DNA from: Asaia siamensis
GTDB taxonomy: Bacteria > Pseudomonadota > Alphaproteobacteria > Acetobacterales > Acetobacteraceae
NCBI RefSeq assembly: GCF_014635085.1
Contig: NZ_BMCH01000001.1
Location: 651,151 to 715,150 of the forward strand
Direction of reading: 5' to 3'
Length of the DNA: 64,000 nt
Shown here: one piece after another, positions 37,470-57,890 of the stretch
Layout of the letters: each line of letters starts with the position of its first letter
Numbering within the stretch: position 1 is the stretch's first letter
Made by a program: the position numbers and the translations under genes
The notes under the pieces: generated by a model
What the model was told of the DNA's origin: nothing
What the model saw: only the letters and a program-made list of their open reading frames with translations
The model's database searches: none

Positions 37470-37567
37470 CGACGTCTTTGTGATGATTGGGTTAAGGGGT
37501 TTGACGTACTGCCTCTCCTGAGCCGATGCTGTATTTCTCATACGGTCAGAAACAGGGAACGCATCGC

Positions 37568-39850: not shown

Positions 39851-39863
39851 GAAAGAGGGTAGA

Positions 39864-41357: not shown

Positions 41358-42109
41358 TCGCCCGACTTCTGTCGCCTCTCGCAATTCTGGGCGGGGTTCT
41401 GGTTGCGGGTGTGTCTCACGCCTCGGCTGCCACCGTGGTGCACAAGGATCATGATCCTGATGCGCTCTGGAAGATCGTGCATCAGAAATGCGCGCAGGGC
41501 ACGGCACCCTGCGCCGTCTATGATGAGTCGCGCCATATAGCGCTTCTGCATTCCATCGAAGGGCGTGGTCAGTATCTTCTGATCCCGACTGACAAGGTGG
41601 CCGGAATGGAGAGTGCAGCCCTGCTGCAGGCCAACCAGCCCAATTACTTTGCCGAAGCATGGTCGTATCGCGATCGGGTTGGTGCCTCCTACGGAACGCC
41701 GGTTCCCGAAACGATGCTTTCCCTGGCAATCAACTCGGCCAGAGGGCGTTCGCAGAACCAGTTGCATATCCATCTGGATTGCCTTGCGCCAGAAATACGG
41801 GCGACGCTGGACCGTGACGCGTCGCGCATTGGCTCCGACTGGGCGGTATTGCCGGACACGCTCGATGGTCACCGTTATCGGGCACGTTATCTGACCTCCC
41901 TTGATGCCTCGCCGTTTCTCGTTCTGGCGGCATCTCTCCGGCATCCGGAGACAGAGATGGGTGACCATACGCTCGTGGTGGCGCCTCTGCGTTCCGGCTA
42001 TGTCCTGCTCGATGATGTGGCGCAGGGCAGCGATCGCGCTTCAGGCGAGGAATTGCAGGATCACGCCTGTCTCGCTGTGATGAAGGCCCCCGCCTCGAAA
42101 ACGCGCTGA
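41351..42109 (+). CDS. cdh: CDP-diacylglycerol pyrophosphatase, exported
   Basis: 252 residues with a signal peptide (hydrophobic LLSPLAILGGVLVAGVSHASA, cleavage likely after residue 26). The HIT-like core is very close to E. coli Cdh in the stretch LAINSARGRSQNQLHIHLDC, where His139 and His141 form the catalytic pair. The enzyme splits CDP-diacylglycerol to CMP and phosphatidate at the outer face of the inner membrane. It overlaps ppx by seven bases, so three phosphate-related genes form a single transcript (ppk-ppx-cdh), an unusual partner for the polyphosphate genes. Confidence 0.9.
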   Translation: MLIARLLSPLAILGGVLVAGVSHASAATVVHKDHDPDALWKIVHQKCAQGTAPCAVYDESRHIALLHSIEGRGQYLLIPTDKVAGMESAALLQANQPNYFAEAWSYRDRVGASYGTPVPETMLSLAINSARGRSQNQLHIHLDCLAPEIRATLDRDASRIGSDWAVLPDTLDGHRYRARYLTSLDASPFLVLAASLRHPETEMGDHTLVVAPLRSGYVLLDDVAQGSDRASGEELQDHACLAVMKAPASKTR

Positions 42110-42345: not shown

Positions 42346-43665
42346 TCAGTCGATGGTCTTGAGAATGCGGCCGATGGTCTCGAAGATCCGGTCGATCTCA
42401 TTCTTCTCAATGATCAGTGGCGGTGAAATGGCAAGAATATCGCCCGTGTAACGCAGCAGAAGCCCTTCATGGAAGGCGCGCTCGAATACCTCGAAAGCGC
42501 GCGTGGTCTTGGCGTTGCGAGGGGCCAGTTCGATACCGGCAACGAGACCTTCATTACGGATATCGACGACATGCGGCGCGTCGCGCAGCGAGTGGGCCGC
42601 TTCCTCGAAATAAGGCGAAAGCGCTGCGGCACGCTCAAAGAGACGCTCTTCGGCATAGGTATCGAGGGTGGCAATAGCGGCAGCGCAGGCAATCGGATGG
42701 GCCGAATAGGTGTAGCCATGGGGCAGGTCGATCGCTTCAAGCGGCCCCTGCATGAAGGCGTTGAAAATCTCGTCAGATACGATGTTGGCGCCCATCGGAA
42801 TGGTGCCGTTGGTGATCCCTTTGGCGACGGTCATGATGTCAGGCACGACACCATATTTTTCTGCGGCAAAAGAAGCGCCAAGACGACCGAAGCCTGTGAT
42901 CACCTCATCGAAAATCAGCACGATGCCATGCTTCGTGCAGATCTCGCGCAGGCGTTTGAGATAGCCTTTGGGTGCGGGCAGAACGCCGGTCGATCCGGCC
43001 ATTGGCTCCACAATGACGGCAGCAATATTCGAGGCGTCATGTAGCGCCACGATCCGCTCCAGATCATCTGCCAGCTCGGCCCCATGCTCGGGCAGACCGC
43101 GCGAAAACGCGTTGCGACGGAGGTCGAGCGTATGGGGAAGGTGATCGACACCGGTCAGAAGCGAGCCGTAGAGCTTGCGGTTGCCAGAGATGCCACCAAC
43201 AGAAATGCCGCCAAACCCGACACCATGATAGGCACGCTCGCGGCCAATCAGCCGGGTGCGGGTGCCTTCGCCCCGCAGACGGTGATAGGCAATGGCGATC
43301 TTGAGCGCGGTATCACCAGCTTCCGAACCGGAATTGCAGAAGAACACATGGTTCAGAGGATTCGGGGCGAGGCGGGCAATACGATCGGCCGCCTGGAAGG
43401 CGAGGGGATGACCCATCTGGAAAGCCGGAGCGAAATCGAGCGTTGCGACGGCTTTCTGCACGGCCTCGACGATGCGTGGCTGACCATGACCGGCATTGAC
43501 GCACCAGAGCCCGGCGCAACCATCGAGCACTTCACGCCCTTTATCGTCACGATAATACATGCCTTTTGCAGAAACGAGCATGCGGGGTGAGTCGCGAAAC
43601 TGGCGATTGGCCGTAAAAGGAAGCCAGAGGGCGTCGAGATTGCTGTCGGCGTTATGGGAATTCAT
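42346..43665 (-). CDS. Class III aminotransferase, probable beta-alanine (omega-amino acid):pyruvate transaminase
   Basis: 439 residues. Fold type I PLP enzyme: FFCNSGSEAGDTALKIAIAY near 110, GRERAYHGVGFGG near 147, VLIFDEVITGFGRLG near 250 and the PLP lysine in MTVAKGITNGTIPMGAN near 282. The N-terminus LDALWLPFTANRQF matches omega-amino acid:pyruvate aminotransferases. These move the amino group of beta-alanine to pyruvate, giving malonate semialdehyde. The close carbamoyl-beta-alanine amidohydrolase-like gene would supply beta-alanine. It diverges from the MFS transporter gene with about 110 bases between starts. Confidence 0.88.
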   Translation of the reverse strand: MNSHNADSNLDALWLPFTANRQFRDSPRMLVSAKGMYYRDDKGREVLDGCAGLWCVNAGHGQPRIVEAVQKAVATLDFAPAFQMGHPLAFQAADRIARLAPNPLNHVFFCNSGSEAGDTALKIAIAYHRLRGEGTRTRLIGRERAYHGVGFGGISVGGISGNRKLYGSLLTGVDHLPHTLDLRRNAFSRGLPEHGAELADDLERIVALHDASNIAAVIVEPMAGSTGVLPAPKGYLKRLREICTKHGIVLIFDEVITGFGRLGASFAAEKYGVVPDIMTVAKGITNGTIPMGANIVSDEIFNAFMQGPLEAIDLPHGYTYSAHPIACAAAIATLDTYAEERLFERAAALSPYFEEAAHSLRDAPHVVDIRNEGLVAGIELAPRNAKTTRAFEVFERAFHEGLLLRYTGDILAISPPLIIEKNEIDRIFETIGRILKTID

Positions 43666-43776
43666 GGCCTTCTTTCCGGCTCCTGTTGCGAGGTCACTCG
43701 GTAAAGTCGTGGCATGACCGGCACGATCTGAAAAGTAAGAAGAAGTTGCGTGAGCTTTAAATATTCTGGAGGCACG

Positions 43777-44928
43777 ATGGCATCGCCGCGTATTGCATTA
43801 TTCTCGCTCGCTGTTGGCGCTTTCGCGATTGGCACGACCGAGTTCACGCCGATGGGTCTGCTGCCCGTTATCGCGCAGGATCTGCATGTCAGTGTGCCCA
43901 AGGCCGGGGGGCTCGTCAGCGCCTATGCGTTTGGCGTCATGATCGGCGCGCCGATCATGACATTGCTTCTGGGGGCCATGTCGCGAAAGGCAGCGCTGAT
44001 AGGGCTCATGGGGCTTTATATCATCGGCAATCTCGGTGCCGGGCTGAGCCACAGCTATGCGCTGCTCATGTTCTGGCGGGTTGTCACAAGCCTGTCTCAC
44101 GGTGCGTTTTTCGGTCTTGGCGCAGTCGAAGCTTCGAGTGTCGTCGCGCCCGAGAAGCGGGCCTCAGCGGTTGCGTCCATGTTTCTGGGGCTGACCATCG
44201 CCAATATCTTTGGTGTGCCTGCTGCCACCTGGCTTGGGGACACGATGGGCTGGCGCAGCGCCTTTCTCGTGACAGCCCTGCTCGGCGCGCTGGCCGTTCT
44301 GGCGCTTTCCATCGCGCTTCCACCAAGAGGGCGTTCGCCCAAGCCCGATATCCTGGGTGAATTGCGTGTCCTGCTGGGCGGGGAAGTGCTGCTTGCTCTT
44401 ACAGTCACGACACTCGGCGCCGGGATCATGTTCGTACTTTACACCTATATTGCGCCATTCCTGCACAGCATCACCCATGCCAGCGACGCGCTCGTCACGC
44501 TGGCACTGATGACCATCGGGGTAGGATTCAGCATCGGTGCTGCGCTCGGCGGGCGGCTTGCCGATCGCTCGACGCGCTTTGCCCTTCTGACCATGCTGCC
44601 GGTTCTCGGGGGGATCATGCTCGTTTACCCGATGCTTGCAGCCTCTTCCCTTGGCGCAATAGCCGGTATCCTGGTCTGGAGCGCGGCGTCTTTCGCCATC
44701 ATGCCTGCGCTCCAGATGCGCACGATGCAGGCAGCGCATGAGGCGCCAGCCCTCGCATCCTCGGTCAATATCGGCGCGTTCAACCTCGGTAATGCACTTG
44801 GTGCCTGGCTGGGTGGCGCGGTGCTCTCACACGGTCTCGGCTACGGGGCGGTGTCGGTCAGTGGCACCGCCGTGGCGCTGGTCGCCTTCCTGATCGTGTT
44901 GTTTTACCGGCGCAAATCAGCTGCCTGA
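43777..44928 (+). CDS. MFS transporter, DHA1-type
   Basis: 383 residues, twelve hydrophobic helices. Resembles AraJ/YdhP-type drug:H+ antiporter-1 members: FAIGTTEFTPMGLLPVIAQDL in helix 1, LMFWRVVTSLSHGAFFGLGAVEA in the first half, and WLGDTMGWRSAFLV. ATG 43777 is chosen because GGAGG lies six bases upstream. Substrate unknown; location between the aminotransferase and the amidohydrolase suggests uptake or export of a pyrimidine breakdown intermediate, but the family more often exports. Its final 12 bases overlap the convergent hydrolase gene. Confidence 0.85.
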   Translation: MASPRIALFSLAVGAFAIGTTEFTPMGLLPVIAQDLHVSVPKAGGLVSAYAFGVMIGAPIMTLLLGAMSRKAALIGLMGLYIIGNLGAGLSHSYALLMFWRVVTSLSHGAFFGLGAVEASSVVAPEKRASAVASMFLGLTIANIFGVPAATWLGDTMGWRSAFLVTALLGALAVLALSIALPPRGRSPKPDILGELRVLLGGEVLLALTVTTLGAGIMFVLYTYIAPFLHSITHASDALVTLALMTIGVGFSIGAALGGRLADRSTRFALLTMLPVLGGIMLVYPMLAASSLGAIAGILVWSAASFAIMPALQMRTMQAAHEAPALASSVNIGAFNLGNALGAWLGGAVLSHGLGYGAVSVSGTAVALVAFLIVLFYRRKSAA

Positions 44929-46200
44929 CGGCGAGCCGGGGTCGAGTTGCCTGTCTGCAATGAACAAGGTCTGCAGCAGAACATTGGCCCCGGCAGCAAT
45001 ATCCTCGCGCGTGGCAGATTCACTTTCATTATGGCTTATGCCGCCAGCGCAGGGGACGAAGATCATGGTCGTCGGGACGATGCGGGCGAGATAGGCCGCG
45101 TCATGGCCTGCGCCCGAGGTGATCTCGCGTGACGGCAGATGTTGAGCGCGGGCTGCGAAGGAAACAGCGTCGATCAGGCGCTGGTCAAAATGCACGGCCG
45201 GCGAGTCCCATATTTCGCGAATACCGATGCTGACCCCGTATTCGCGCGACAGCGCCCCGGCGCGATCGCGGAAACTGTTTTCCATGGCAATGACGACATC
45301 ATCATTCGGGTCACGCAGATCGACGCTGAAGATGACCTCTCCGGGAATGGTGTTGCGGCTGTTTGGCTTGACCGTCACCATGCCAACCGTCCCGACAGCG
45401 TGGGGCGGGCGATTGAGTGCGATCTCCTGTACGCTGGCCATGAGGCGTGAGGCCGCCTGGAGTGCATCGGCCCGCATGGTCATCGGTGTCGTGCCAGCAT
45501 GGGAATCGCGACCCGTGACCGTCACCTCATACCAGCGCATGCCCTGCACACCGGTCACGACACCGATCGTGCAGTGCTCTGCTTCAAGCACAGGGCCTTG
45601 CTCGATATGCAGTTCAAGATAGGCGGCGAGAGGATGTTCGCCGCAGGGTTCGTCGCCTGCAGCCTCGATCGAGGCGAGTGCGGTGTCAAAGCGTTTGCCT
45701 TGCGCATCGACGCGACTTTTCGCAAAATCAGGTGTGAAGATCTTCGCGAAAACGCCAGAACTCAGCATGGCAGGCGCGAACCGTGCCCCCTCCTCATTGG
45801 TCCAGTTGACGATCTCGACAGGGTGGCGAAGGCGACGCCCGCTTTCCTTCAACGTACGCAGAACAGCAATGCCACCCAGCACGCCGATAATGCCATCGTA
45901 TTTGCCACCTGTGGGCTGCGTATCGAGATGACTGCCGATTGCGATAGGGGCGAGGCCCGGCTCGGTGCCCTCGAAACGCGCAAACTGGTTGCCCATGTCG
46001 TCTGACGTGACTGTAGCCCCGAGTGCTTCGGCTGTCTGTGTAAACCAGTTTCGCACTTGCCGATCTTCGGCACTCAGGGCGAGGCGACAGAGTCCGCCTT
46101 TCTCGGTCGCGCCAAACTGCGCCGTCTCCATGATGTCATGCCAAAGAGCGTCTGAATCGATGGCGCTGTTGCCCATGAGGGTATGGTTCTGATCCGTCAT
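44917..46200 (-). CDS. Zn-dependent hydrolase, probable N-carbamoyl-beta-alanine amidohydrolase
   Basis: 427 residues from ATG 46200 (AGGAAGGA upstream). M20-like di-metal amidohydrolase of the HyuC/AllC family. Metal ligands: His91 in GSHLDTQPTGG, Asp102 in KYDG, the Glu pair in WTNEEGARFAPAM near 136, and His in ELHIEQGPVLE; a late HDAAYLARIVPTTMIFVPC. The DTQPTGG and WTNEEGARF wording is that of beta-ureidopropionases and L-N-carbamoylases, whereas allantoate amidohydrolases usually have shorter, different forms (e.g. HIDTVVNGG in E. coli AllC). It would release beta-alanine, CO2 and ammonia. Activity on allantoate cannot be excluded, and the purine operon next door lacks that enzyme. Confidence 0.85.
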   Translation of the reverse strand: MTDQNHTLMGNSAIDSDALWHDIMETAQFGATEKGGLCRLALSAEDRQVRNWFTQTAEALGATVTSDDMGNQFARFEGTEPGLAPIAIGSHLDTQPTGGKYDGIIGVLGGIAVLRTLKESGRRLRHPVEIVNWTNEEGARFAPAMLSSGVFAKIFTPDFAKSRVDAQGKRFDTALASIEAAGDEPCGEHPLAAYLELHIEQGPVLEAEHCTIGVVTGVQGMRWYEVTVTGRDSHAGTTPMTMRADALQAASRLMASVQEIALNRPPHAVGTVGMVTVKPNSRNTIPGEVIFSVDLRDPNDDVVIAMENSFRDRAGALSREYGVSIGIREIWDSPAVHFDQRLIDAVSFAARAQHLPSREITSGAGHDAAYLARIVPTTMIFVPCAGGISHNESESATREDIAAGANVLLQTLFIADRQLDPGSPSGS

Positions 46201-46489
46201 GTCGTGATCCTTCCTCGATCCTCTGGTCGCATTCTGCTGCGTATCGTGCCTCACAGGCTACAGCGCCGGCTCTGCGCGTGAAACAGGCGTTTGTCTCGAG
46301 GAGCATAACTGACCGAGGGAGACGGACAACCGGGGAGAGGCTTCGAGGGGCGCTACGAACGCGTGAGCGTGATGTCGCGACCGGTGGTGGTCAAGGCGCC
46401 CCGAAAACCCGCCTTTCCTCACCCATAAAGACGCCGGTTGATAAGGCCGCATTCAAGGCTCAAAGGAAGCGGGCCAGAGTCGTGTTTTC

Positions 46490-47092
46490 TCAGGCAGTCT
46501 TGCGCAGGACGAGAGACAGAATGGTCTCGGCTGCGACCTGGAAATCGCTTTCCTCGAGCGTCTCTTTTTCGAGCAATGCCGTCACCTGCGGCTGCATGTC
46601 GGCATACCATTGGGTCATGGCCCACAGACAAAACAGGAAATGGGTCGGATCACCCTTGGGAATTTCTCCACGGGCCATCCATGTCTCGAAAGTTTCCTTG
46701 AAGGGATGGATCGCGTCGCGCAGCGTGGTCGAGAGATAATCGCCCAGATAGCGCGCCCCCCCAAGGATTTCATGCGCGAAAAGTCGTGACGCATGCGGAT
46801 TGATGCGGGAAAAGGCGAGCTTCGACATGACATAGCCACGCAGCGCCGTATCAGCCGATGATTCGGGCCGGAGCCATGTCTCGCAATCGCCAAGCCATTC
46901 CTGCACGGTGCGGTGCAATACTTCTTGGTAAAGTATTTCCTTGGTAGAAAAATAATAGTGGATATTGGCTTTGGGTATGCCTGCTTCTCGGGCAACAGCG
47001 GCAATGCTGGCTCCAGTAAAGCCATGTTCAGAAAAGATTTTCCGGGCGGCATCCAATATGGTGACGACTGCTATTTCGCGCGGGACGCCCAA
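46490..47092 (-). CDS. TetR family regulator, RutR-like
   Basis: 200 residues. N-terminal helix-turn-helix: TILDAARKIFSEHGFTGASI then AREAGIPKANIHYYFSTKE (about 10-55). The ligand domain follows E. coli RutR closely in pattern: EVLHRTVQEWL, INPHASRLFAHEILGGARYL, DPTHFLFCLWAMTQWYADMQPQV. RutR senses uracil and thymine and controls pyrimidine use and purine genes. Its position between the amidohydrolase and the divergent purine operon makes it a likely local regulator. A longer upstream space of 319 bases separates it from the purine operon. Confidence 0.85.
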   Translation of the reverse strand: MGVPREIAVVTILDAARKIFSEHGFTGASIAAVAREAGIPKANIHYYFSTKEILYQEVLHRTVQEWLGDCETWLRPESSADTALRGYVMSKLAFSRINPHASRLFAHEILGGARYLGDYLSTTLRDAIHPFKETFETWMARGEIPKGDPTHFLFCLWAMTQWYADMQPQVTALLEKETLEESDFQVAAETILSLVLRKTA

Positions 47093-47411: not shown

Positions 47412-48149
47412 GTGAGTTGTGCGACAGTTCAACCATGCCGGTCCGCGTTTGGGCGATGGCGTTCCGTGGGTAGGGGCGCGCTTATTGCCGCTATGCTTTG
47501 CGCTCCGGCTCTGGGCCCCGTCACTGCGCAGGCCGTGCCGGTCAATGTGGGCGATGCCGCCATTGCCGCAAAAGCCTATCATGATAGTGGCGCCTATGAG
47601 CGCGATTTTGCTTCGGTGATCCAGGAGGCGTCGGAATGGGTGCGCTTGCGCGCCGTGCATGTCAGCAGACCCGCCGTTGTTCTCGATATCGACGAGACGT
47701 CTCTGTCGAACTGGCCTGAAATAGCTGCCAACCAGTTTGCCTATTTTCGTGAGGGGCGATGCGACACGCTGCCCAAGGGGCCTTGTGGTGTCGAGGCATG
47801 GGAGCAGACGGCAAAGGCCGAAGCGTTTCCTGCCATGCTCGCCCTTTATGGGATGGCGCAGCAGCATGACGTTGCGGTGTTTTTCGTGACCGGTCGTTAC
47901 GAGCATGAGCGCACCGAGACGGCCCAAAATCTCGAGGCGTCCGGCTATCACAACTGGGCTGGTCTGGTTCTGCGTACCGATGGAAGCCACACGGCTTCAG
48001 CGTCGGACTACAAGAGCGCAGCTCGCCAGAAAATCGAGCAGGACGGCTATCACATCATCGCCAATATCGGTGACCAGCCATCGGATCTTGCCGGTGGCTA
48101 TGCCGAACGCGGTTTCCTTCTTCCCAATCCCTTCTATCGGGTCCCCTGA
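47412..48149 (+). CDS. Exported HAD-family acid phosphatase
   Basis: 245 residues from GTG 47412. A signal peptide (LIAAMLCAPALGPVTAQA) is followed by a HAD acid phosphatase domain of the class B/plant VSP type: RPAVVLDIDETSLSNWPEI near 91, with Asp94 nucleophile; VAVFFVTGRYEHER; and a late ANIGDQPSDLAGGY with the metal ligands. Relatives include the e(P4) and AphA nucleotidases that dephosphorylate nucleotides in the periplasm. As first gene of the urate operon, separated from the flavoprotein gene by a single base, it may feed external nucleotides into purine breakdown. The GTG has AGGAG 11 bases upstream, so the start is moderately sure. Confidence 0.85.
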   Translation: MSCATVQPCRSAFGRWRSVGRGALIAAMLCAPALGPVTAQAVPVNVGDAAIAAKAYHDSGAYERDFASVIQEASEWVRLRAVHVSRPAVVLDIDETSLSNWPEIAANQFAYFREGRCDTLPKGPCGVEAWEQTAKAEAFPAMLALYGMAQQHDVAVFFVTGRYEHERTETAQNLEASGYHNWAGLVLRTDGSHTASASDYKSAARQKIEQDGYHIIANIGDQPSDLAGGYAERGFLLPNPFYRVP

Positions 48150-48150
48150 C

Positions 48151-49593
48151 ATGCAGAATGACGCGCTCAAAGCCCTCACCAGACAGGTTCATGAGGATCT
48201 CGAGAAAATCGCCTATGCCTCAGGGCCGTGGGTTTCGTCAGTTCTGACGCATCATGGCGAGCCGGTTCTTGATGTCGCAGTGATTGGTGGTGGTCAGGGC
48301 GGTCTGGCGACAAGCTTCGCCCTGCGTCGTATTGGTGTGCATAATGTGCGCGTGTTTGAGCGGGCCAAGCATGGCAAAGCAGGTCCATGGGTAACGTTCG
48401 CCCGGATGATTACCTTGCGTACGCCCAAGCATGTGACCGGGCCCGATCTGGGTATTCCATCTCTGACACCACGCTCATGGTTTGAGGCGCGCTACGGAGA
48501 AGCTGCCTGGGCCTCGCTCGACAAGATCGACCGACGCGACTGGCAGGCCTATCTCGACTGGTATAGCGAGACCCTTGCCTTGCCAGTGCAGCATGATCGT
48601 GAACTCGTCGATGTCGTGTGGCAGGACGGGTTGCTGCATCTCACCTTCCGGTCGCAGGATGGCGAAACCAGCAAGGTCTGGGCGCGTCGCATCGTGCTTG
48701 CGACCGGTATCGAGGGCAGCGGATCGTGGCATGTGCCCGAATTCATTCGTGAGTCGGTACCAGCCCATCTTTATGCCCATACGCATCAGGAAATCGACTT
48801 CGAAGCCCTGCGTGGCAAGCGGGTCGGCGTGCTGGGCGGCGGGGCGTCTGCGTTCGACAATGCCGCGACGGCGCTCGAAGCCGGGGCGCAATCGGTTGCT
48901 GTCTGTATCCGCCGCAAGACCCTGCCGCGCATCAACCCGTATCGCTGGATGGAAAATGCCGGGTTCCTCGGCCATTTTCCGTCGCTCCCGGATCTGACGC
49001 GCTGGCGTTTCATGCGTCGTATCTTCGATCTCAACCAGCCTCCGCCGCAGGATACGTTCTGGCGGTGCAGCCGTCATGACGGCTTCAGCTTTCATGGCGA
49101 CACGCCCTGGCTCGATGCCCGTTGCGATGGAGAAACCGTGATCGTGAAAACGCCCCGTGGTGAAAAGACATTCGACTTTCTGATCATCGGTACGGGTTTT
49201 GTGATCGATTTCAGCAAGCGCCCCGAGACAGCCTCCTTCGCGTCCAATATCGCGCTCTGGGGTGATCGTTTTACCGCCCCGGCGGGAGAAGAGAGCGCTG
49301 TGCTCGATTCCTACCCCTATCTCAGCCCGCAAAGTCAGTTCCTGCCTCGTGATGCGGCGCATCCTGACGCCGCGATGCTGGGTGCGATCTATAATTTCAC
49401 CTTCGCCGCGACGCCGAGCATGGGGCTTTCGGGCGCTTCGATCAGCGGCATGCGCTACGGCGTCGACAGGCTTGCCCGGGCGATTGCCTGCGATCTCTTC
49501 GTTCAGGATGGCGAAAAGCATCTTGAGAGCCTGCTCTCTTACGACACTGAAGAACTGGTCAGCCTCGGTCGACAGGGTGAGGAGCAGGCATGA
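48151..49593 (+). CDS. Flavoprotein monooxygenase, candidate HpyO-type urate hydroxylase
   Basis: 480 residues. Two nucleotide-binding Rossmann motifs: DVAVIGGGQGGLATS near residue 42 for FAD and RVGVLGGGASAFDNA near 225 for NAD(P)H, with VLATGIEGS between and FLIIGTGFVIDF near 347. The layout is that of flavin monooxygenases with separate NAD(P) domain, not the PHBH fold of HpxO. HpyO of Xanthomonas was described as a non-homologous urate hydroxylase of this kind. The neighbouring HIU hydrolase, OHCU decarboxylase and allantoinase make urate to 5-hydroxyisourate the obvious missing step. The function is therefore inferred mainly from context. Overlaps the next gene by four bases (ATGA). Confidence 0.72.
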   Translation: MQNDALKALTRQVHEDLEKIAYASGPWVSSVLTHHGEPVLDVAVIGGGQGGLATSFALRRIGVHNVRVFERAKHGKAGPWVTFARMITLRTPKHVTGPDLGIPSLTPRSWFEARYGEAAWASLDKIDRRDWQAYLDWYSETLALPVQHDRELVDVVWQDGLLHLTFRSQDGETSKVWARRIVLATGIEGSGSWHVPEFIRESVPAHLYAHTHQEIDFEALRGKRVGVLGGGASAFDNAATALEAGAQSVAVCIRRKTLPRINPYRWMENAGFLGHFPSLPDLTRWRFMRRIFDLNQPPPQDTFWRCSRHDGFSFHGDTPWLDARCDGETVIVKTPRGEKTFDFLIIGTGFVIDFSKRPETASFASNIALWGDRFTAPAGEESAVLDSYPYLSPQSQFLPRDAAHPDAAMLGAIYNFTFAATPSMGLSGASISGMRYGVDRLARAIACDLFVQDGEKHLESLLSYDTEELVSLGRQGEEQA

Positions 49594-49763
49594 CGGCTGA
49601 AGAGCAACTCGTGGCGCGCGCCGCTGCGCTCGACCTGACCGTTCCAGAAGAATATCGTTCCGAGATCATGCGTAATCTGGCGCTTATCGGGCAGTATGAG
49701 GCGCTGGTAAACGCCGTCGATCTGCCTGAGCGGCTTGAACCAGCCTACGAGTATCATCCATGA
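49590..49763 (+). CDS. AtzG/HpxX-like small amidase subunit (DUF4089)
   Basis: Only 57 residues, below usual gene-calling thresholds. It begins MTAEEQLVARAAALDL and contains RSEIMRNLALIGQYEALVNA, the DUF4089 pattern. DUF4089 proteins (AtzG, HpxX) are GatC-like partners that wrap round an AtzE-type amidase and stabilise it. Here the gene is coupled on both sides, overlapping the flavoprotein stop and the amidase start by ATGA each, so the stoichiometry is likely fixed by translation. Confidence 0.82.
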   Translation: MTAEEQLVARAAALDLTVPEEYRSEIMRNLALIGQYEALVNAVDLPERLEPAYEYHP

Positions 49764-51085
49764 GAGCGACGGAACTCGCGCGGGCGGTCAGAGCCGGAGA
49801 ACGCTCCGCGGTTTCCGTCATCACGTTCTGTCTCGACCGGGTGATCGCGCGTGACGGGGCTCTCAATGCGGTCACGCGTCTGCTTGCCGAGCGGGCGATC
49901 GACCAGGCACGCCATATCGATGCGATCGTGGCCAGCGGGGGTGATCCCGGGCCTCTGGCTGGTGTGCCGTTCGGCATCAAGGACCTGTTCGATGTCGAGG
50001 GGCTTGTCACGACAGCGGGCTCACATGTGCTGGCCGATGAGCCTCCAGCCACTCAGGATGCACTGCTTGTACGCCGTCTGGTTGCGGCCGGTGCGATCCC
50101 GCTCGCCACCACCAATATGGATGAATTCGCTTACGGTTTTGCAACGGATAATGCGCATTACGGTCTGACTCACAACCCGCACGATACAACCCGCCTGGCA
50201 GGGGGGTCTTCGGGTGGGTCGGCTGCCGGTGTCGCTGCCGGATATTTTCCGCTCTCCCTTGGGTCGGACACGAATGGTTCCATCCGTGTTCCCGCGTCGC
50301 TCTGTGGTGTATGGGGATTGCGCGCGACACAGAACCTACTGCCGACCGAAGGGTCCTTTCCTTTCGTGGCCAGTCTCGACACGGTTGGACCCTTTACAGC
50401 CAGCGCTGGCGATATGCGCCTTATGATGGACGCGCTGACAGGCCAAACACTCGCCCGGGTCGACACGGACGGGCTGCGTCTGGCGCGGCTAGGCGGATGG
50501 TTTGCCACCGATGTATCGCCAGAAATGGAAGCGGCGCTTGCCGGGTTGTGTCGTGCTTTGAATGTCGGGCGTGAAATACAGCTTCCCGAGGTCGCCGCGG
50601 CCCGTGCGGCTGCTTTTGTCATCAGCGCTTCGGAAGGCGGCGGGCTGCACCTCGACCGGTTGCGTCGTCAGGCGGCGCTTTATGATCCTGCGGTGCGCGA
50701 TCGCCTTCTCGCCGGGGCGCTTGTTCCGGCGCCGGTTGCGTTCAGGGCGCATAAGCTGCGTCGCTGGTTTCGTGACCGGATGCATGAGGCCTTCGAAGCA
50801 ACGGATCTTCTGATCGCGCCTGCCGTCGTCGGTGAGGCACCGCGCATCGAGGCGCCGGTGCTCATGATCGGTGGCAAGGCGGTTCCGGCACGCGCCAATC
50901 TGGGTCTCTACACCCAGCCTCTCACACTGGCTGGGTTTCCGGTTCTCACTGTGCCGCTCGCGGTTGAGGGGCTGCCGCTCGGCGCGCAGATCATCGCGCC
51001 GCCGGGACGTGAAGACCGGCTGATCGCTTTCGGCGAAGCTCTTGAGCTATCGGGGCTGGCCCGTGCGCGAATTCTGGAGGATTGA
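49760..51085 (+). CDS. AtzE family amidohydrolase (HpxY-like)
   Basis: 441 residues, amidase-signature family. Catalytic triad: Lys in GVPFGIKDLFDVEG near 74, the cis-serine in LAGGSSGGSAAGVAAG near 152, and the nucleophile Ser in LGSDTNGSIRVPA near 174. With the preceding AtzG/HpxX-like subunit it matches the HpxXY and AtzEG pairs. AtzE hydrolyses 1-carboxybiuret in cyanuric acid breakdown; homologues in purine clusters probably act on oxalurate or a related ureido acid. The real substrate is not established here. Gene order with DUF4089 and GGT-like HpxW follows the Klebsiella hpx locus. Confidence 0.88.
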   Translation: MRATELARAVRAGERSAVSVITFCLDRVIARDGALNAVTRLLAERAIDQARHIDAIVASGGDPGPLAGVPFGIKDLFDVEGLVTTAGSHVLADEPPATQDALLVRRLVAAGAIPLATTNMDEFAYGFATDNAHYGLTHNPHDTTRLAGGSSGGSAAGVAAGYFPLSLGSDTNGSIRVPASLCGVWGLRATQNLLPTEGSFPFVASLDTVGPFTASAGDMRLMMDALTGQTLARVDTDGLRLARLGGWFATDVSPEMEAALAGLCRALNVGREIQLPEVAAARAAAFVISASEGGGLHLDRLRRQAALYDPAVRDRLLAGALVPAPVAFRAHKLRRWFRDRMHEAFEATDLLIAPAVVGEAPRIEAPVLMIGGKAVPARANLGLYTQPLTLAGFPVLTVPLAVEGLPLGAQIIAPPGREDRLIAFGEALELSGLARARILED

Positions 51086-52662
51086 TGCTTTTCAGTGCGC
51101 GCTCCCGCAAGGGAATGGTGACCGCCCCGCATCATCTTGCCGCTCAGGCGGGAAGGGATATTCTCAGACAGGGCGGTAATGCCGTCGAGGCAGCCGTAGC
51201 CGTCGCGGCGACTCTCTCGGTTGTCTATCCGCATATGACGGGGCTGGGTGGAGACGGGTTCTGGATTATCCGCAGGCCTGACGGGGCCATGCTGGCGATT
51301 GATGCCTGTGGCAGACTGGCCCAGAACGCGACCCCCGAACTCTATAGCGGCCTTGATGCCGTGCCCTGGCGCGGCGGCCTGGCTGCCAATACAGTGGCGG
51401 GGACTGTTGCCGGATGGAGTCAGGCGCTTGCCTATGCAGGTGGCAGCCTGCCACTCACCACACTTCTAGCCGATGCCATCGACCATGCCGAGCATGGTAT
51501 GGTGGTGACAGAAAGCATGGCCGGGCTCATGGCGGCGCATCTCGATGTGCTGAGCTACATGCCCAATTTCAGTGCGTTGTTTCTCCCCTCCGGTGATATG
51601 CCGATAGCGGGGAGCATCCATCGCAACCCGGCACTGGCGCGGACACTCAAGCGTCTCGCCACAGCAGGGCTGGGCGATTTCTATCACGGTAAACTCGCCG
51701 ATCTGATTGCAGCAGAGCTTGCCGCCTGCGGTTCACCTGTCGGGCTCGACGATCTGAACCATCATGAAGCTGTAGTTTCAGCACCGCTCGAGACGCAGCT
51801 TCATCACGGACGGTTCTTCAACGTCAACCCACCCACGCAGGGGGCGGCGTCCCTCCTGATTCTGGCCCTTGCAGAGAGGCTTGGGGTGAAGGGGGCGGAT
51901 ACGGTCGAGGACATCCATCGCTGGGTCGAAGCCACCAAGGCTGCCTTCATCTGGCGTGATCAGAAGATCGCCGATCCGGCGATCATGGAGACGTCGCCTC
52001 AGGCTCTGCTGTCAGACAGCGCCGCCCTTGATGCCATGGCGGCCGGAATCGATCTGGATCGCGCGGCACCCTGGCCACATCCGGTCGAGCAGGGCGATAC
52101 GACCTGGTTTGGTGTGATGGATGCTGAGGGCTGGTCGGTCAGCATGATCCAGAGCCTCTATTTCGAATTCGGGTCCGGGATTGTGCTGCCCGAGAGCGGG
52201 CTTGTCTGGCAGAATCGCGGGGCGAGTTTCGATCTCAGGCCCGGTCGCCTGCGCAGCCTCGTTCCCGGTCGCAAGCCTTTTCATACGCTCAACCCCGCCA
52301 TGGCGGCGCTCAGTGACGGAAGCCTTCTGTCCTACGGCACAATGGGCGGCGAGGGGCAGCCCCAGACACAGGCGGCCATTGTGGCGCGCAATGTCATTGC
52401 CGGATTGAGCCTGCAGGAGGCGATTACCGCGCCGCGCTGGCTGTTGGGTCGCACCTGGGGTGAAACAACGACCACGCTCAAGATGGAAACGCGTTTCGCC
52501 CCGGAATTGCTCGACGGTCTGCGCGATCTTGGTCACGACGTCGAGAGTCTGACGCCTTTTGCCACGGCAATGGGTCATGCGGGTGCCATTCGGCGCTACG
52601 AGGACGGAACGCTCGAAGGCGCTACCGACCCGCGTAGCGACGGCGGCGTGGCGGCGCTGTAA
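51085..52662 (+). CDS. hpxW: Gamma-glutamyltransferase-fold amidohydrolase (HpxW-like)
   Basis: 525 residues. N-terminal nucleophile enzyme: the precursor is expected to cleave itself before Thr in GDTTWFGVMD near residue 338 and use that Thr as catalyst. Other family parts are MTGLGGDGFWIIRRP near 51 and LSYGTMGGEGQPQTQ near 415. There is no signal peptide, unlike periplasmic Ggt, so it works in the cytoplasm. HpxW proenzyme was shown to hydrolyse oxamate to oxalate and ammonia. Starts at ATG 51085, one base overlapping the amidase stop, with GGAGG five bases upstream; a TTG at 51082 is possible. Confidence 0.85.
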   Translation: MLFSARSRKGMVTAPHHLAAQAGRDILRQGGNAVEAAVAVAATLSVVYPHMTGLGGDGFWIIRRPDGAMLAIDACGRLAQNATPELYSGLDAVPWRGGLAANTVAGTVAGWSQALAYAGGSLPLTTLLADAIDHAEHGMVVTESMAGLMAAHLDVLSYMPNFSALFLPSGDMPIAGSIHRNPALARTLKRLATAGLGDFYHGKLADLIAAELAACGSPVGLDDLNHHEAVVSAPLETQLHHGRFFNVNPPTQGAASLLILALAERLGVKGADTVEDIHRWVEATKAAFIWRDQKIADPAIMETSPQALLSDSAALDAMAAGIDLDRAAPWPHPVEQGDTTWFGVMDAEGWSVSMIQSLYFEFGSGIVLPESGLVWQNRGASFDLRPGRLRSLVPGRKPFHTLNPAMAALSDGSLLSYGTMGGEGQPQTQAAIVARNVIAGLSLQEAITAPRWLLGRTWGETTTTLKMETRFAPELLDGLRDLGHDVESLTPFATAMGHAGAIRRYEDGTLEGATDPRSDGGVAAL

Positions 52663-52682
52663 GCCACAGAAGGGACAAAGGC

Positions 52683-53579
52683 ATGAGAGAGGCTTATCCA
52701 CGCGATCTTCTGGGCTATGGCGCCCATCCTCCCGAGGCGAACTGGCCCGACAAGGCGCGTATCGCCGTGCAGTTCGTGCTGAATTACGAAGAAGGCGCCG
52801 AGAATAACATTCTGCATGGCGATAACGGGTCTGAGGCTTTTCTCTCGGAGATGGTTGGCACTCGGTCGATTTCGGGTGCGCGATGCATGCAGATGGAGAG
52901 CCTATACGAATATGGCTCGCGCGCTGGTTTCTGGCGCCTGCATCGTCTTTTTACCGAAGCCGGTCTGCCCCTGACCGTTTTCGGTGTCGCCATGGCGCTC
53001 TCGCGTAACCCGGATGCCGTGGCGGCCATGCAGGCGGCAGGCTGGGAGATCGCCTCTCACGGACTGCGCTGGATCGACTATCAGGATATTCCTGAAGCTG
53101 AGGAGCGCAAGCATATCCGCGAGGCGATCAGGCTGCACAAGGAAGTCACGGGGTCAGCTCCCCTTGGCTGGTATCAGGGCCGCACCAGCCCCAACACGGC
53201 CAGGATCGTCGCGCAGGAGGGGGGCTTTGTTTATGACGCCGATTCCTACGCGGACGATCTGCCTTACTATGATCGCCGCTACGGCAAGGCACAGCTCATC
53301 GTGCCCTATACGCTCGATGTGAACGACATGAAGCTTGTGGCTCTCAACGGTTTTACCGAGGGCGAGCAGTTCTTCCGTTATCTGCGTGACAGCTTCGATA
53401 TGCTCTATCAGGAAGGGGGGCGCATGATGTCCGTTGGTCTGCATTGCCGTCTGGCAGGGCGTCCGGCGCGTGCCCTGGCGCTGAAGCGCTTTCTGGATCA
53501 TGTGCGAGCACATGACAATGTGTGGGTCGCAACGCGCCTCGATATAGCGCGTCACTGGCTGGAGCAGCACCCGGCATGA
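52683..53579 (+). CDS. puuE: Allantoinase, PuuE type
   Basis: 298 residues in the polysaccharide-deacetylase fold. The N-terminus YPRDLLGYGAHPPEANWP and FVLNYEEGAENNILHGD are typical for PuuE, the metal-independent allantoinase that opens the allantoin ring to allantoate. The central WEIASHGLRWIDYQ and YQGRTSPNTARIV segments hold the presumed active site. Twenty bases after hpxW and overlapping the OHCU decarboxylase gene by four bases. Confidence 0.93.
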   Translation: MREAYPRDLLGYGAHPPEANWPDKARIAVQFVLNYEEGAENNILHGDNGSEAFLSEMVGTRSISGARCMQMESLYEYGSRAGFWRLHRLFTEAGLPLTVFGVAMALSRNPDAVAAMQAAGWEIASHGLRWIDYQDIPEAEERKHIREAIRLHKEVTGSAPLGWYQGRTSPNTARIVAQEGGFVYDADSYADDLPYYDRRYGKAQLIVPYTLDVNDMKLVALNGFTEGEQFFRYLRDSFDMLYQEGGRMMSVGLHCRLAGRPARALALKRFLDHVRAHDNVWVATRLDIARHWLEQHPA

Positions 53580-54070
53580 TCGGCGCAGAGAACCGCGAGA
53601 ATTTCGTCGCGCGATTCGGCGATCTCTATGAGTACAGCCCCTGGATCGTCGATGCCGCCTGGCCGCAGGCGCCCTTCGACAGCGCGCAGGCTTTCATCGA
53701 AGCGACGTCGCGTATCGTGCGTGAGGCGCCGTCTGACGGGCAGAAAGCCCTGGTAAAGGCACATCCCGAGCTTGCCAGAAAATTCGGTGTCGATCCTGAT
53801 CTTGGAGCGCTTTCTGCTTCCGAGCAGGAAGGGGCCGGGCTCGACCGGCTGACCGAGGCTGAGTTCATCTCGTTCCGGGCATTGAATGATGCCTATCAGG
53901 CACGTTTCGACATGCCCTTCGTCATTTGCGTGCGTCGGGCCACGAAGGAGCGGATACGGCAGGAAATAGAACGGCGTCTCCAGCAGACGCCCGAGGCAGA
54001 GCTGGCCGAGGCGCTCGACCAGATCGATCAGATTGCCTTGTTGCGCCTGAAGGACAAGACAGGATCATGA
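53576..54070 (+). CDS. uraD: OHCU decarboxylase
   Basis: 164 residues. Converts 2-oxo-4-hydroxy-4-carboxy-5-ureidoimidazoline to S-allantoin. Conserved catalytic His63 in KAHPELARK and Glu in SASEQEGAGLD near 84; F..LN..Y...F..PFVICVR near 105-125 is also a hallmark. Starts inside the puuE stop (ATGA) and is itself overlapped by the HIU hydrolase gene. Confidence 0.94.
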   Translation: MIGAENRENFVARFGDLYEYSPWIVDAAWPQAPFDSAQAFIEATSRIVREAPSDGQKALVKAHPELARKFGVDPDLGALSASEQEGAGLDRLTEAEFISFRALNDAYQARFDMPFVICVRRATKERIRQEIERRLQQTPEAELAEALDQIDQIALLRLKDKTGS

Positions 54071-54399
54071 CCACACTCTCAACTCATGTTCTCGATACGG
54101 CAAGCGGCCGTCCCGCTGCAGGAATGCGTGTGACATTGCTGCATGACGACCGCGTTCTCTTTTCCGGTGTGACGGATAGCGATGGACGTTGCGCCGAATT
54201 GAAGGCCATTGGTGTCACCGCAGGCGCTTATGTGCTGCGCTTTGCCGTAGCTGCATATTTCAGGGCGCATGGGCATATTTTGCCGGAACCTCCTTTTCTG
54301 GACGAGGTGCAGATCGATTTCGGCATGACAGGCGCGGGTCATTATCACGTGCCGCTCCTGGTCTCGCCCTTCGGCTACTCGACCTACCGCGGAAGCTGA
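54067..54399 (+). CDS. uraH: 5-hydroxyisourate hydrolase (transthyretin-like)
   Basis: 110 residues. Hydrolyses 5-hydroxyisourate to OHCU, the step before UraD. Conserved His7 in LSTHVLDTASGRPA, FPEVxxxF-like DEVQIDF, HYHVPLLVSPFGYSTYRGS at the end with the diagnostic YRGS C-terminal tetrapeptide (107-110). No signal peptide, hence cytoplasmic and distinct from periplasmic HiuH forms. Last gene of the operon, followed by a terminator. Confidence 0.95.
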   Translation: MTTLSTHVLDTASGRPAAGMRVTLLHDDRVLFSGVTDSDGRCAELKAIGVTAGAYVLRFAVAAYFRAHGHILPEPPFLDEVQIDFGMTGAGHYHVPLLVSPFGYSTYRGS

Positions 54400-54935: not shown

Positions 54936-57890
54936 TCAGAAATCCTTGCTGATCTGAAGCCAGAAGTTCCGGCCTGGAACGAAGGAGCTATAGGTCGAGG
55001 TATCGGTGTTGGTGCCGCCATCGGCGAAGAAGGGCGGGTTCTTGTTGGCGATATTGTTGACGCCGCCAGTAAAATTCCAGCTTTCAACATGGTAGCCGAG
55101 CGCGATGTCCTGCTGAACCATGGCAGGGGTCTTTACCCGACCATAGCCATCGGAAAGCTGCATGAAGGACGAGCTGTCATTCCAGTGAACGCCGCCTGTG
55201 TAGTTCGCCATATAGGTGATGGAGAACGGCCCATGCTGCCACGAGACGGTAGCGTAGTCGCGCCAGCGCGGGTTCGACGTACCACCCGGATAGTAGATGG
55301 CGTTCGTGTAGTGGTAGTACTGACCGCCCGGAACGAGTTGCTGCGAGTAATTGACGAGGTTCTGCAGGCTGTTGCTGATCGTCAGCGTATCTATGCGCGT
55401 CAGGCGGATACGGTAATCAAAGTCCCAGTCGATGCCGCTCGTGTTTGTCGTACCCAGGTTCTGCAAGACGGCCGAGACCTGCGAGATCTGTCCATTGGCA
55501 GAGCGGTTGACGAGACTGCAAAGCCCTGGATTGGTACCGTTGTAGCAGTTGTTGAGGATGTAGTTGGTGGCGAGTGTTCCGACCGATGAGCTGACATTGT
55601 AGTGCCAGAATTCCACCGAGGTGGAGAGGCCAGGAATCCAGCGCGGTGTCAGGACGGTACCGAATGTGTAGGTTCGACCGGCCTCCGGCTGCAGTTTGGC
55701 ATTGCCGCCCGAAACAGTCGCGACCTGGCCCGAGCCCTGCTGCTGGAAGCTGCCCGGATTGGCGATGCCAGCCTTCATGCAGTTGGCGACAATCGTCGGG
55801 CTTGAGGCACCAGCGCAAGGATCGAGCGCTGTGGCATAGCCGAGAGACTGGGCGCCGAACAGTTCATAGACCGAGGGCTGGCGGAACGATGTGCCGATTG
55901 TGCCGCGGAAGCGGATATCGCGTGTCGGAGCCCAGTTGATGGAGGCTTTCCAGTTTTCGACACTGCCAAAGGTATTATAGGACGAATAGCGCCCCTGAGC
56001 GTCGATGTTCAGATCCTTGGCGAGGAACGTATCGCGCAGCAGCGTCGCCTTACCTTCAAGATAGCCTTCCGTGACGTTGAAGCCACCCGAGGTCACGCCC
56101 TGAGGGTTCGTCAGCGCGACACCTGACTGCAGCGCTGGATCAGGCACATAGGTCAGCTGCTCGCCGCGATGCTCCATACCAAGTGCGATGCCCAGATCGC
56201 CACCATGAGCCCATGGCATGGTCGCGACATGATCATTGTGAATCCGCAGGTTCAGGTCGCGCAGCTGGGAGTGGCCGTTGCTGGTAGTGTTGAGATTGGA
56301 ATAGCGGGCTGCCGCAGGCGAGAGGCTGGCAAACGGGCTGGACAGCACACATCCCGCAGCGGCGTTACAGACACTGGGGTTGTAGATCATGCCTGAATTT
56401 GGATCGCCGAATGCGGTGGGCTGCAGGCCATAGGTGTTCAGCAGAGCAGGATAGCTACCCATGTTGCTCTGCTGGTATTTGTACATGTTGGCGCCGTAGG
56501 TATAGGACAGATCATATTTCCAACCTGCGTAAATACGGCCCTGTGCACCGACCTTGGCTGTAAGCGTATCGCTGGCCGTCTGCGTTTCACGCGGGCCCCA
56601 CTCTGTCATACGCCGCAGCATCTGCAGATCTTCGCCTGCTGTGTTGCCCGGATAATCGGCCGGGATCGTGATCGCAGTCGGATAGGGACCGTTCTGTGGA
56701 ACCGCCCCTGCAACCGGCTCGGCCGCCATCTGGGTCATGCTTGTATTGTGCGAATACAGAACATTCGAATACAGGGTGAAATGGTCGTTGAAATCGTAAT
56801 GGGCATCGCCACTCAGGGACGAGTCCTGCAGCTGGTTTGTCAGGAAGCTGTCATGAGCGAAGTTGAAGCGCTTTGTGCCGGCTACCAGATTACCCTGATT
56901 GTCACTGCGATAGGCAGCCCCGGAATCCAGTCCGTAAAAGGAGCCGTAGGGCGAGTAGCTTGAGCCGAAGCGGTTGTTTGACGGATCGGCATCGTCGCCG
57001 ATCTGCACATTGCGCGACCAGGATCGGTTGCGCTGACGGACCCCGCCCTGCGTCATATACTGGCCGAACAGGCTGATATTGCCCTTGCTGTGATCGAAGT
57101 TCCAGCCCTTGAAGCCCGAGATGATTCCTTGCGGTGCATCGCCATGGCCCGTGATACCACCGCGGACAGTGATGTTGCCGGTATCCAGATCATGCCGCAG
57201 CTTGATGTTGATAACGCCTGAAACAGCGTCGGCACCATAAAGCTCAGAGCCGCCATCCTTGAGAATTTCGACGCTCGCAACCTGCTGCACAGGGATCGAG
57301 TTCATGTCGAAGCAGTTGCTGGAGCTGTTCAGCGCGGCACGCTTGCCATCGATCAGGACGAGAACGCGGTTGGTGCCGAGATTACGCAGATCGGTGCAAC
57401 TGACGCCGCCGCCACCATTGGTGTCGGTATTCTGCTGGCTGGAGGAACCTACAGACGGCAGACGCTGAAAGAAATCGGACAGCGTGGTCGCACCGGTCTG
57501 CTGGATCTGTTTGGCTGTAACGATCTGCACCGGGTTGGCGCTGGTGTTGTTTGCCGTGCTGAGAGCCGAGCCGACAACGACCACCTCTTCAGCTTTGCCG
57601 CTCATGCCGAGGGAGAGGCTATTGGATGCCGAAACATCGCGGAGCGTCGTCTGCGAGCGGCTTGGCATTGTCGTAGCGACAGGGGCGGTCTGTGCGCCAG
57701 CGATCGGGCCACTCGTCGTGCCCTTGGTAACAGTGGTCTTGTGCCTGGTGGTCGATTTGACCGCCTTACGGTGATGCGTGCTGGCTGAGGCGGTCTGCGC
57801 ATGGCCGCTCGTCATGGTCGCTGCAGGCGAGAGGAAAATCACGGCACCCAGAAAAAGACGCGCTCGTCCTCGTATTTTGACGGTTTTCAT
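54936..57890 (-). CDS. TonB-dependent outer-membrane receptor
   Basis: 984 residues. Signal peptide to about residue 31 (LFLGAVIFLSPAATMTSGHAQ), then a roughly 70-residue low-complexity Ser/Thr/His/Lys linker, then the plug domain with AEEVVVVGSALS, DFFQRLPSVGSSSQ, RVLVLIDGKRAA and VEILKDGGSELYGADAVSGVINI, and a large beta-barrel ending in Phe (FWLQISKDF). These receptors bring large or scarce nutrients across the outer membrane with TonB energy. The sequence is of the size common in Acetobacteraceae and Sphingomonadaceae receptors with unknown substrates. Position next to the urate operon makes a nucleobase or nucleotide substrate possible but unproven. Confidence 0.93.
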   Translation of the reverse strand: MKTVKIRGRARLFLGAVIFLSPAATMTSGHAQTASASTHHRKAVKSTTRHKTTVTKGTTSGPIAGAQTAPVATTMPSRSQTTLRDVSASNSLSLGMSGKAEEVVVVGSALSTANNTSANPVQIVTAKQIQQTGATTLSDFFQRLPSVGSSSQQNTDTNGGGGVSCTDLRNLGTNRVLVLIDGKRAALNSSSNCFDMNSIPVQQVASVEILKDGGSELYGADAVSGVINIKLRHDLDTGNITVRGGITGHGDAPQGIISGFKGWNFDHSKGNISLFGQYMTQGGVRQRNRSWSRNVQIGDDADPSNNRFGSSYSPYGSFYGLDSGAAYRSDNQGNLVAGTKRFNFAHDSFLTNQLQDSSLSGDAHYDFNDHFTLYSNVLYSHNTSMTQMAAEPVAGAVPQNGPYPTAITIPADYPGNTAGEDLQMLRRMTEWGPRETQTASDTLTAKVGAQGRIYAGWKYDLSYTYGANMYKYQQSNMGSYPALLNTYGLQPTAFGDPNSGMIYNPSVCNAAAGCVLSSPFASLSPAAARYSNLNTTSNGHSQLRDLNLRIHNDHVATMPWAHGGDLGIALGMEHRGEQLTYVPDPALQSGVALTNPQGVTSGGFNVTEGYLEGKATLLRDTFLAKDLNIDAQGRYSSYNTFGSVENWKASINWAPTRDIRFRGTIGTSFRQPSVYELFGAQSLGYATALDPCAGASSPTIVANCMKAGIANPGSFQQQGSGQVATVSGGNAKLQPEAGRTYTFGTVLTPRWIPGLSTSVEFWHYNVSSSVGTLATNYILNNCYNGTNPGLCSLVNRSANGQISQVSAVLQNLGTTNTSGIDWDFDYRIRLTRIDTLTISNSLQNLVNYSQQLVPGGQYYHYTNAIYYPGGTSNPRWRDYATVSWQHGPFSITYMANYTGGVHWNDSSSFMQLSDGYGRVKTPAMVQQDIALGYHVESWNFTGGVNNIANKNPPFFADGGTNTDTSTYSSFVPGRNFWLQISKDF

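Follow-up and report, generated by a model that had tools for sequence, protein, structure and literature searches.

The window analysed here was a 64,000-nucleotide stretch of the Asaia siamensis genome (contig NZ_BMCH01000001.1, positions 651,151–715,150). At 47412–54399 of the window, eight open reading frames (ORFs), all on the plus strand, filled the whole interval and formed a probable operon for urate degradation, in which a flavin monooxygenase (P0001) is the proposed urate-oxidizing enzyme. All eight proteins exceeded the curated cut-off of at least one Pfam family. Some of the ORF starts in this interval were picked from the nucleotide sequence; that of the HpxW-like gene was taken as the ATG at 51085, with a TTG at 51082 likewise in frame. 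The eight genes and a divergent regulator gene were as follows.

47412–48149, plus strand: HAD-superfamily IIIB acid phosphatase with an N-terminal signal-like stretch (PF03767, 149.9 bits, cut-off 27)
48151–49593, plus strand: flavin adenine dinucleotide (FAD)/NAD(P)H monooxygenase P0001, 480 residues, proposed urate 5-hydroxylase (Pyr_redox_3, Lys_Orn_oxgnase, Pyr_redox_2 and NAD_binding_9 over their Pfam cut-offs)
49590–49763, plus strand: AtzG/HpxX-like small subunit, 57 residues (PF13318 AtzG-like, 33 bits, cut-off 24)
49760–51085, plus strand: AtzE/HpxY-like amidase (NF006631, 576.7 bits, cut-off 461; TIGR02715, 537.9, cut-off 425.75)
51085–52662, plus strand: HpxW-like Ntn hydrolase of the gamma-glutamyltransferase (GGT) fold (PF01019, 406 bits)
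52683–53579, plus strand: PuuE-type allantoinase (TIGR03212, 535.5 bits, cut-off 424.6)
53576–54070, plus strand: 2-oxo-4-hydroxy-4-carboxy-5-ureidoimidazoline (OHCU) decarboxylase, UraD (TIGR03164, 175.5 bits, cut-off 96.25)
54067–54399, plus strand: 5-hydroxyisourate (HIU) hydrolase, UraH (TIGR02962, 112.7 bits, cut-off 87.45)
46490–47092, minus strand: divergent TetR-family regulator with a RutR/YcdC-like C-terminal domain (PF08362, 120.1 bits; PF00440, 55 bits)

The successive junctions of the eight genes were a gap of 1 base, overlaps of 4, 4 and 1 bases, a gap of 20 bases, and two overlaps of 4 bases. The ORF coordinates thus bore out the initial annotation, which had been made from the letters of this DNA and described an eight-gene operon with overlaps of one to four bases at five of seven junctions. 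The same eight-gene order was found in 8 of 80 loci of relatives (L001–L008), with the short AtzG-like gene once under the match limit, and the arrangement is therefore not a matter of chance. The further proposal of a single expression unit was supported by the gene spacing and the conserved order, whereas the promoter and terminator scans gave it no support: no promoter-like site was found ahead of the operon, the sole promoter-like site lying at 54666–54639 on the minus strand, and no terminator-like site was found after 54399. An operator role for the palindrome TGGTATACCA, which lies upstream of the operon, was rejected: in nine relatives its core was not found ahead of their phosphatase gene.

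UraH, UraD and PuuE passed the NCBIfam equivalog or equivalog-domain cut-offs with the scores listed above, all in one transcription-like unit, and the identities first given to them from motifs were borne out. The OHCU decarboxylase was the sole OHCU match in the genome. The operon is read, with a probability of about 0.88, as a purine-nitrogen scavenging unit in which urate would be opened by a flavin monooxygenase in place of a uricase, and the products fed towards ammonia. The family identity of the parts and the gene order are evident from the sequence, as is the lack of an over-cut-off match to other known urate oxidase families; the substrate, chemistry, regulation and whole flux of the operon are what we infer from them.

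In the proposed route, the monooxygenase would use FAD, NAD(P)H and O2 to convert urate to 5-hydroxyisourate, presumably by attack of a flavin hydroperoxide on C5 of urate. UraH would convert 5-hydroxyisourate to OHCU, UraD would convert OHCU to S-allantoin, and PuuE would open the allantoin ring to give allantoate. Allantoate hydrolysis and a ureidoglycine-glyoxylate transaminase would be encoded outside the operon, with oxalurate as the output; the HpxXY-like amidase would then convert oxalurate to oxamate, and the HpxW-like enzyme oxamate to oxalate and ammonia. The acid phosphatase may release nucleosides outside the cytoplasm, which is the least certain step. The initial annotation had the operon run from urate to allantoate. 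That span agrees with UraH, UraD, PuuE and the oxidase candidate, but is too narrow, as it omits the phosphatase and the HpxX/HpxY/HpxW-like trio, which would act at much later steps.

The flavoprotein had two dinucleotide-binding motifs, in which Gly46, Gly48 and Gly51, and Gly229, Gly231 and Ala234, were invariant in 31 aligned sequences. From these motifs, the Pyr_redox and Lys_Orn_oxgnase profiles and the predicted fold, FAD- and NAD(P)H-binding domains are predicted to lie in one chain. The AlphaFold model had a predicted local distance difference test (pLDDT) score of 82.6 and a predicted template modelling (pTM) score of 0.82, and the protein had one match in the genome. The genome searched for competing oxidases was 3.3 Mb, with a completeness of 100. 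Uricase (PF01014) had no match in it, the control being positive in 2 of 14 named genomes. PuuD (PF06181) had no match either; it was present in 8 of 60 genomes of the bacterial family, and its control was positive in 1 of 14. Against the HpxO equivalog (NF033623), P0001 scored 17.1 bits with a cut-off of 500, and HpxO was over its cut-off in none of the 60 genomes of the family, the Asaia genome included, where five weak matches were found (best E = 6.4e-9). These results agree with the first description of the oxidase as a flavin monooxygenase with two dinucleotide domains that is neither uricase nor HpxO. Because the genome had no match to uricase or PuuD and none near the HpxO cut-off, the flavoprotein was the best candidate for urate oxidation, and it is probably the urate oxidase of the operon.

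Gene neighbourhoods in relatives also linked the flavoprotein to this pathway. Scanning genome contigs led to 109 confirmed relatives, of which the best 80 were kept, all from the Acetobacteraceae (acetic acid bacteria) by record title; the scan used six short patterns of P0001 itself, which favours close relatives. P0001 was 88–93% identical to the flavoprotein in six Asaia loci. The PuuE, OHCU decarboxylase and HIU hydrolase genes all lay within 10 kb of the flavoprotein gene in 70 of the 80 loci, and eight of the other ten were shortened by contig ends. The remaining two (L077 and L080) were full length and had none of the three genes within 10 kb; among the genes sought, they matched only a permease, an AtzE-like amidase and a transaminase. 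Among the genes sought, the set flavoprotein-PuuE-UraD-UraH-NCS2 permease occurred in 17 loci, all Gluconobacter by record title; a transaminase gene was present in 35 and a phosphatase gene in 12, the loci shortened by contig ends being counted in the 80. The Komagataeibacter locus L036 had the order xdhA-xdhB-xdhC-LysR-type regulator (assigned by eye)-flavoprotein-AtzG-AtzE-GGT-allantoate amidohydrolase-transaminase-PuuE-UraD-UraH. Its allantoate amidohydrolase (L036:14645–15928) scored 581.6 against NF006775 (cut-off 479), and its transaminase (L036:15925–17154) was nearest to PDB entry 3nnk, a ureidoglycine-glyoxylate aminotransferase, at 520.6 bits. In the Asaia type, by comparison, neither gene of the pair that separates GGT from PuuE is present, and a phosphatase gene stands in front. 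The Komagataeibacter cluster suggests a route from urate to oxalate within one locus.

More distant relatives lay in similar surroundings. On a Niveispirillum plasmid (L109), a relative with 56% identity stood in a row with the OHCU decarboxylase and HIU hydrolase genes, with PuuE on the opposite strand. A relative with 46% identity on a Sphingobium sp. V4 plasmid (L206) was accompanied by GGT, allantoate amidohydrolase, transaminase, PuuE, OHCU decarboxylase, HIU hydrolase, XdhB and XdhC genes, and one with 44% identity on a Novosphingobium PP1Y plasmid (L208) by AtzE, GGT, transaminase, PuuE, OHCU decarboxylase, HIU hydrolase and permease genes. In Priestia filamentosa (Bacillota), plasmid p5 (L201, 4746–8428) carried the order permease-uraD-uraH-flavoprotein, with 44.7% identity for the flavoprotein; uraD and uraH were named in the record annotation. 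In a tree of 71 of 122 distinct sequences, from which close Acetobacteraceae copies and duplicate stretches had been omitted, the sphingomonad and Priestia rows formed one supported branch (100/99), separate from the branch of Acetobacteraceae and Niveispirillum.

Several observations weigh against the urate assignment. Allantoate amidohydrolase and transaminase genes were not among the operon genes, and the rest of the genome was not searched for either. A urate label on the tree needed seven changes, where shuffled labels needed a mean of 23.1; the starred branches forced at least six of the seven, and a few of the changes stem from cut-off loci, among them the short Asaia siamensis locus. 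Five Acetobacteraceae rows had been placed in no group: L035 and L052 were cut off, the Asaia siamensis row (L081) was a short locus, and L077 and L080 lacked the three genes within 10 kb. In the phylum sample, a relative at E ≤ 1e-60 was found in 23 of 398 genomes, at 28 match places (the Asaia siamensis genome included in both), and many relatives with 38–48% identity were not beside urate genes. An HIU hydrolase gene was near 1 of the 20 places read with wide flanks (G345, same bacterial family), and another of these (L124) had AtzE- and GGT-like matches 7–10 kb away. The plasmid relatives L202, L203, L207 and L210 were near genes for LysR regulators, peroxidase-related enzymes and ABC transporters, and because several of them sit with such genes, the flavoprotein family is not specific for urate. 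Searched against the PDB, the family profile had its best match at E = 2.7e-8 over a partial length, with no close solved relative, and the model fold was nearest to ornithine, cadaverine and putrescine N-hydroxylases.

A rival explanation is a flavoprotein that hydroxylates another N-heterocycle or an amine, the true urate oxidase being an unrecognised gene elsewhere. The fold likeness and the relatives that stand with a xanthine dehydrogenase-like molybdo-hydroxylase set (Mesorhizobium) or with amino-acid ABC transporters speak for such an enzyme. However, HIU hydrolase and OHCU decarboxylase genes accompany the flavoprotein gene in the Acetobacteraceae, Niveispirillum, two sphingomonads and the Priestia plasmid, and no known urate oxidase family was over its cut-off in the genome, so that this explanation is considered very improbable. 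The initial annotation had held that a best match to an amine N-hydroxylase would speak against urate. The fold was indeed nearest to that group, but with identities of 12–17% and query TM-scores of 0.55–0.60 among the 50 matches listed; the substrate cannot be read from such a likeness of a predicted model, and the neighbourhoods outside the Acetobacteraceae favour urate.

The AtzG-, AtzE- and GGT-like genes resemble the HpxX/HpxY/HpxW module, which would lead from oxalurate through oxamate to oxalate. A GatA-type amidase gene adjoined by a gene for a small GatC/AtzG-like partner, the mark of HpxXY and AtzGE pairs, was found. The only PDB match of the AtzE-like protein at 1e-50 was 6c62/6c6g (residues 1–437), of which 6c62 is presumably AtzE. 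The GGT-like protein, scoring 331.3, did not reach the gamma-glutamyltransferase equivalog cut-off of 357.85. Its best PDB matches were 5hft_A (280.8 bits) and 5hft_B (259.6 bits), and chain B started opposite Thr339; 5hft is taken here to be the Klebsiella pneumoniae oxamate amidohydrolase HpxW. The amidase with its small subunit is proposed to be an oxalurate amidohydrolase, and the GGT-like protein an HpxW-type oxamate amidohydrolase with Thr339 as the putative nucleophile. HpxW is an oxamate amidohydrolase according to PMC5270733, and HpxY is called an oxalurate amidohydrolase in the text of PMC12625717, where a figure legend names it otherwise.

The three genes might instead have shifted to another substrate, such as in 1-carboxybiuret chemistry or gamma-glutamyl peptides, and share only transcription with the urate genes. 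Cyanuric acid breakdown involves an AtzE/AtzG pair (PMC6219798), and an AtzH/HpxZ-like (DUF3225) domain was absent from the eight operon proteins. The failure of the GGT-like protein at the gamma-glutamyltransferase cut-off and its best match to 5hft argue against such a shift, as does the Komagataeibacter locus, where the same three kinds of gene precede those for allantoate amidohydrolase and ureidoglycine-glyoxylate transaminase, which would make oxalurate; we regard the shift as unlikely. The phosphatase is on none of the urate-degradation steps. It scored under the plant-AP and e(P4) cut-offs of NCBIfam, and is a probable exported nucleotidase, the signal peptide being judged by eye and the nucleotidase role being a guess.

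The initial annotation had matched the layout of the flavoprotein to that of HpyO; the identity of the two is still a proposal. The published description of HpyO from Xanthomonas (Michiel et al. 2012, cited in PMC4562309) is of an FAD- and NAD(P)H-dependent enzyme unrelated to HpxO. By description, the Asaia flavoprotein is alike: it is a hydroxylase of the FAD/NAD(P)H type with urate as its proposed substrate, and its genome encodes UraH and UraD and no uricase. A reasonably probable reading is that it is an orthologue of Xanthomonas HpyO, which would make the operon a straightforward instance of an enzyme family already in print. In Table 1 of PMC4562309, 44 species have urad and neither a listed oxidase nor COG3748; counting hpyO as well lowers their number to 26, and this drop suggests that HpyO occurs in more than one genus. 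The acetic acid bacterium Commensalibacter communis was annotated with EC 1.14.13.113 (PMC10149009). P0001 was over the NAD_binding_9 cut-off (29.8 against 21.8 bits). This is presumably the domain named after HpyO/CreE in InterPro. Among 96 OHCU decarboxylase neighbourhoods, described below, no other flavoprotein family was recognised as a candidate.

On the other side, 233 genomes of family f67, presumed to be the Xanthomonadaceae and not confirmed to include an hpyO-bearing Xanthomonas, yielded no relative of P0001 at E ≤ 1e-9; an empty result of this kind shows nothing by itself. The family was picked, and so assigned, only through a 19-base 16S probe, which matched 3 of 398 genomes, two in f67 and the third (G031) in f46. 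The NCBIfam matches shown for the operon proteins included no HpyO model. A second reading, rather doubtful and held tentatively, places the flavoprotein outside HpyO, in another family of flavin-dependent urate hydroxylases that has no name yet and whose fold is akin to that of amine N-hydroxylases. Such a family would have two urate-linked branches, one of Acetobacteraceae with Niveispirillum and one of sphingomonads with the Priestia plasmid, among paralogues of other function.

Further searches bore on the same question. P0001 had no match at E ≤ 1e-40 in 117 f67 genomes, 16 of which had an OHCU decarboxylase gene (15 over the cut-off). Of these 16 neighbourhoods, eight contained PuuD, and eight contained neither PuuD nor a P0001-type flavoprotein within the stretch fetched. 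Strong NAD_binding_9 matches in these genomes lay at least 39 kb from any OHCU decarboxylase gene on the same contig, and nine stretches around nine such matches, with ORFs listed for five of them, gave no match to the operon proteins. In 79 OHCU-bearing genomes of the phylum sample, NAD_binding_9 was matched at E ≤ 1e-12 in 29, none within 50 kb of the OHCU decarboxylase gene on the same contig. The 96 neighbourhoods comprised the 16 of f67 and 80 places from 141 OHCU-bearing genomes of the phylum sample, mostly one per genus. PuuD was present in 49, and the other 47, which had neither PuuD nor a P0001-type flavoprotein, contained six ORFs with a dinucleotide-binding motif, none recognisable as HpyO. 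As none of the f67 and NAD_binding_9 searches yielded HpyO, orthology is not claimed.

A uric acid locus of the Acetobacteraceae has already been published (Winans et al. 2017, cited in PMC8358223, PMC11936674 and PMC5873903). It comes from the same bacterial family and concerns the same pathway, and the present operon is probably a version of it. In a comparison that was not gene by gene, the Asaia type was distinguished by the phosphatase gene in front and by having no allantoate amidohydrolase and transaminase genes in the operon. The Klebsiella hpx genes, which we take to include HpxW, HpxX, HpxY, UraH, UraD and allantoinase steps, are likewise similar, as the Asaia operon has HpxW-, HpxX- and HpxY-like genes together with the UraH, UraD and allantoinase steps. 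They differ in that HpxO is of another flavoprotein family, as the score given above indicates, and in that the Asaia operon has no HpxZ-like domain. Loci with the membrane urate oxidase PuuD share the PuuE, UraD and UraH sets, whereas the Asaia genome has no PuuD match. The pathway is known in acetic acid bacteria, and the operon is a good rather than startling example of it. No experimental description of a P0001-type flavoprotein or of the eight-gene Asaia order was found in a literature search that most subscription papers lay beyond.

Uricase produces hydrogen peroxide, and acetic acid bacteria inhabit insects that excrete uric acid. A water-forming soluble urate hydroxylase is relevant to gout enzymes and to aerobic bacteria, and with the oxidase named, the urate-use trait becomes directly testable by a single-gene deletion. 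The NAD(P)H-dependent urate hydroxylases HpxO and HpyO produce water instead of hydrogen peroxide (PMC4562309). A strain of Acetobacter pasteurianus roughly halved uric acid, only in high-sugar fly food (PMC11936674), and uric-acid-degrading Acetobacter outcompete others on flies (PMC5873903, citing Winans 2017).

Four plasmid loci of flavoprotein relatives were observed in addition. The unannotated record of the Sphingobium sp. V4 plasmid (L206, 1251–13369) holds a long xanthine-to-oxalate gene set around the relative, and the Priestia locus is a compact plasmid urate module near a Tn3-family transposase. On a plasmid of Rhizobium sp. ACO-34A (L200, 1027–11809), a relative with 47% identity was accompanied by an annotated 8-oxoguanine deaminase and by AtzE- and PuuE-like matches, and the set may belong to a different purine-ring pathway. 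On a Mesorhizobium loti plasmid (L110, 8953–14943), a relative with 50% identity was followed by FAD-binding, 2Fe-2S, SRPBCC and xanthine-dehydrogenase-family molybdopterin subunit genes, and may act on another N-heterocycle.

Upstream of the operon, the TetR-family protein scored 141.3 against the RutR model, under the cut-off of 368; it is a possible regulator of the urate operon or of the adjoining carbamoylase gene. The latter, at 44917–46254, was considered as the missing allantoate amidohydrolase and rejected: its product was over a broad subfamily cut-off, but its nearest PDB relatives include N-carbamoyl-beta-alanine amidohydrolase and beta-alanine synthase. Because of these relatives and of the omega-aminotransferase AptA gene two genes away, we judge the product to be a beta-ureidopropionase. 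Genes for AptA, an MFS protein, the carbamoylase near beta-alanine synthases and the RutR-like TetR protein stood together at 42346–47092, probably for beta-alanine or pyrimidine catabolism beside the urate operon. After the operon, a TonB-dependent receptor was encoded at 54936–57890 on the minus strand, and matches to it follow the operon in five of six Asaia loci (56–59% in the best segments) and in Swaminathania (55%). Further upstream, at 37526–42109, genes for polyphosphate kinase 1, an exopolyphosphatase-like protein (just under its cut-off) and CDP-diacylglycerol diphosphatase stood in a row.

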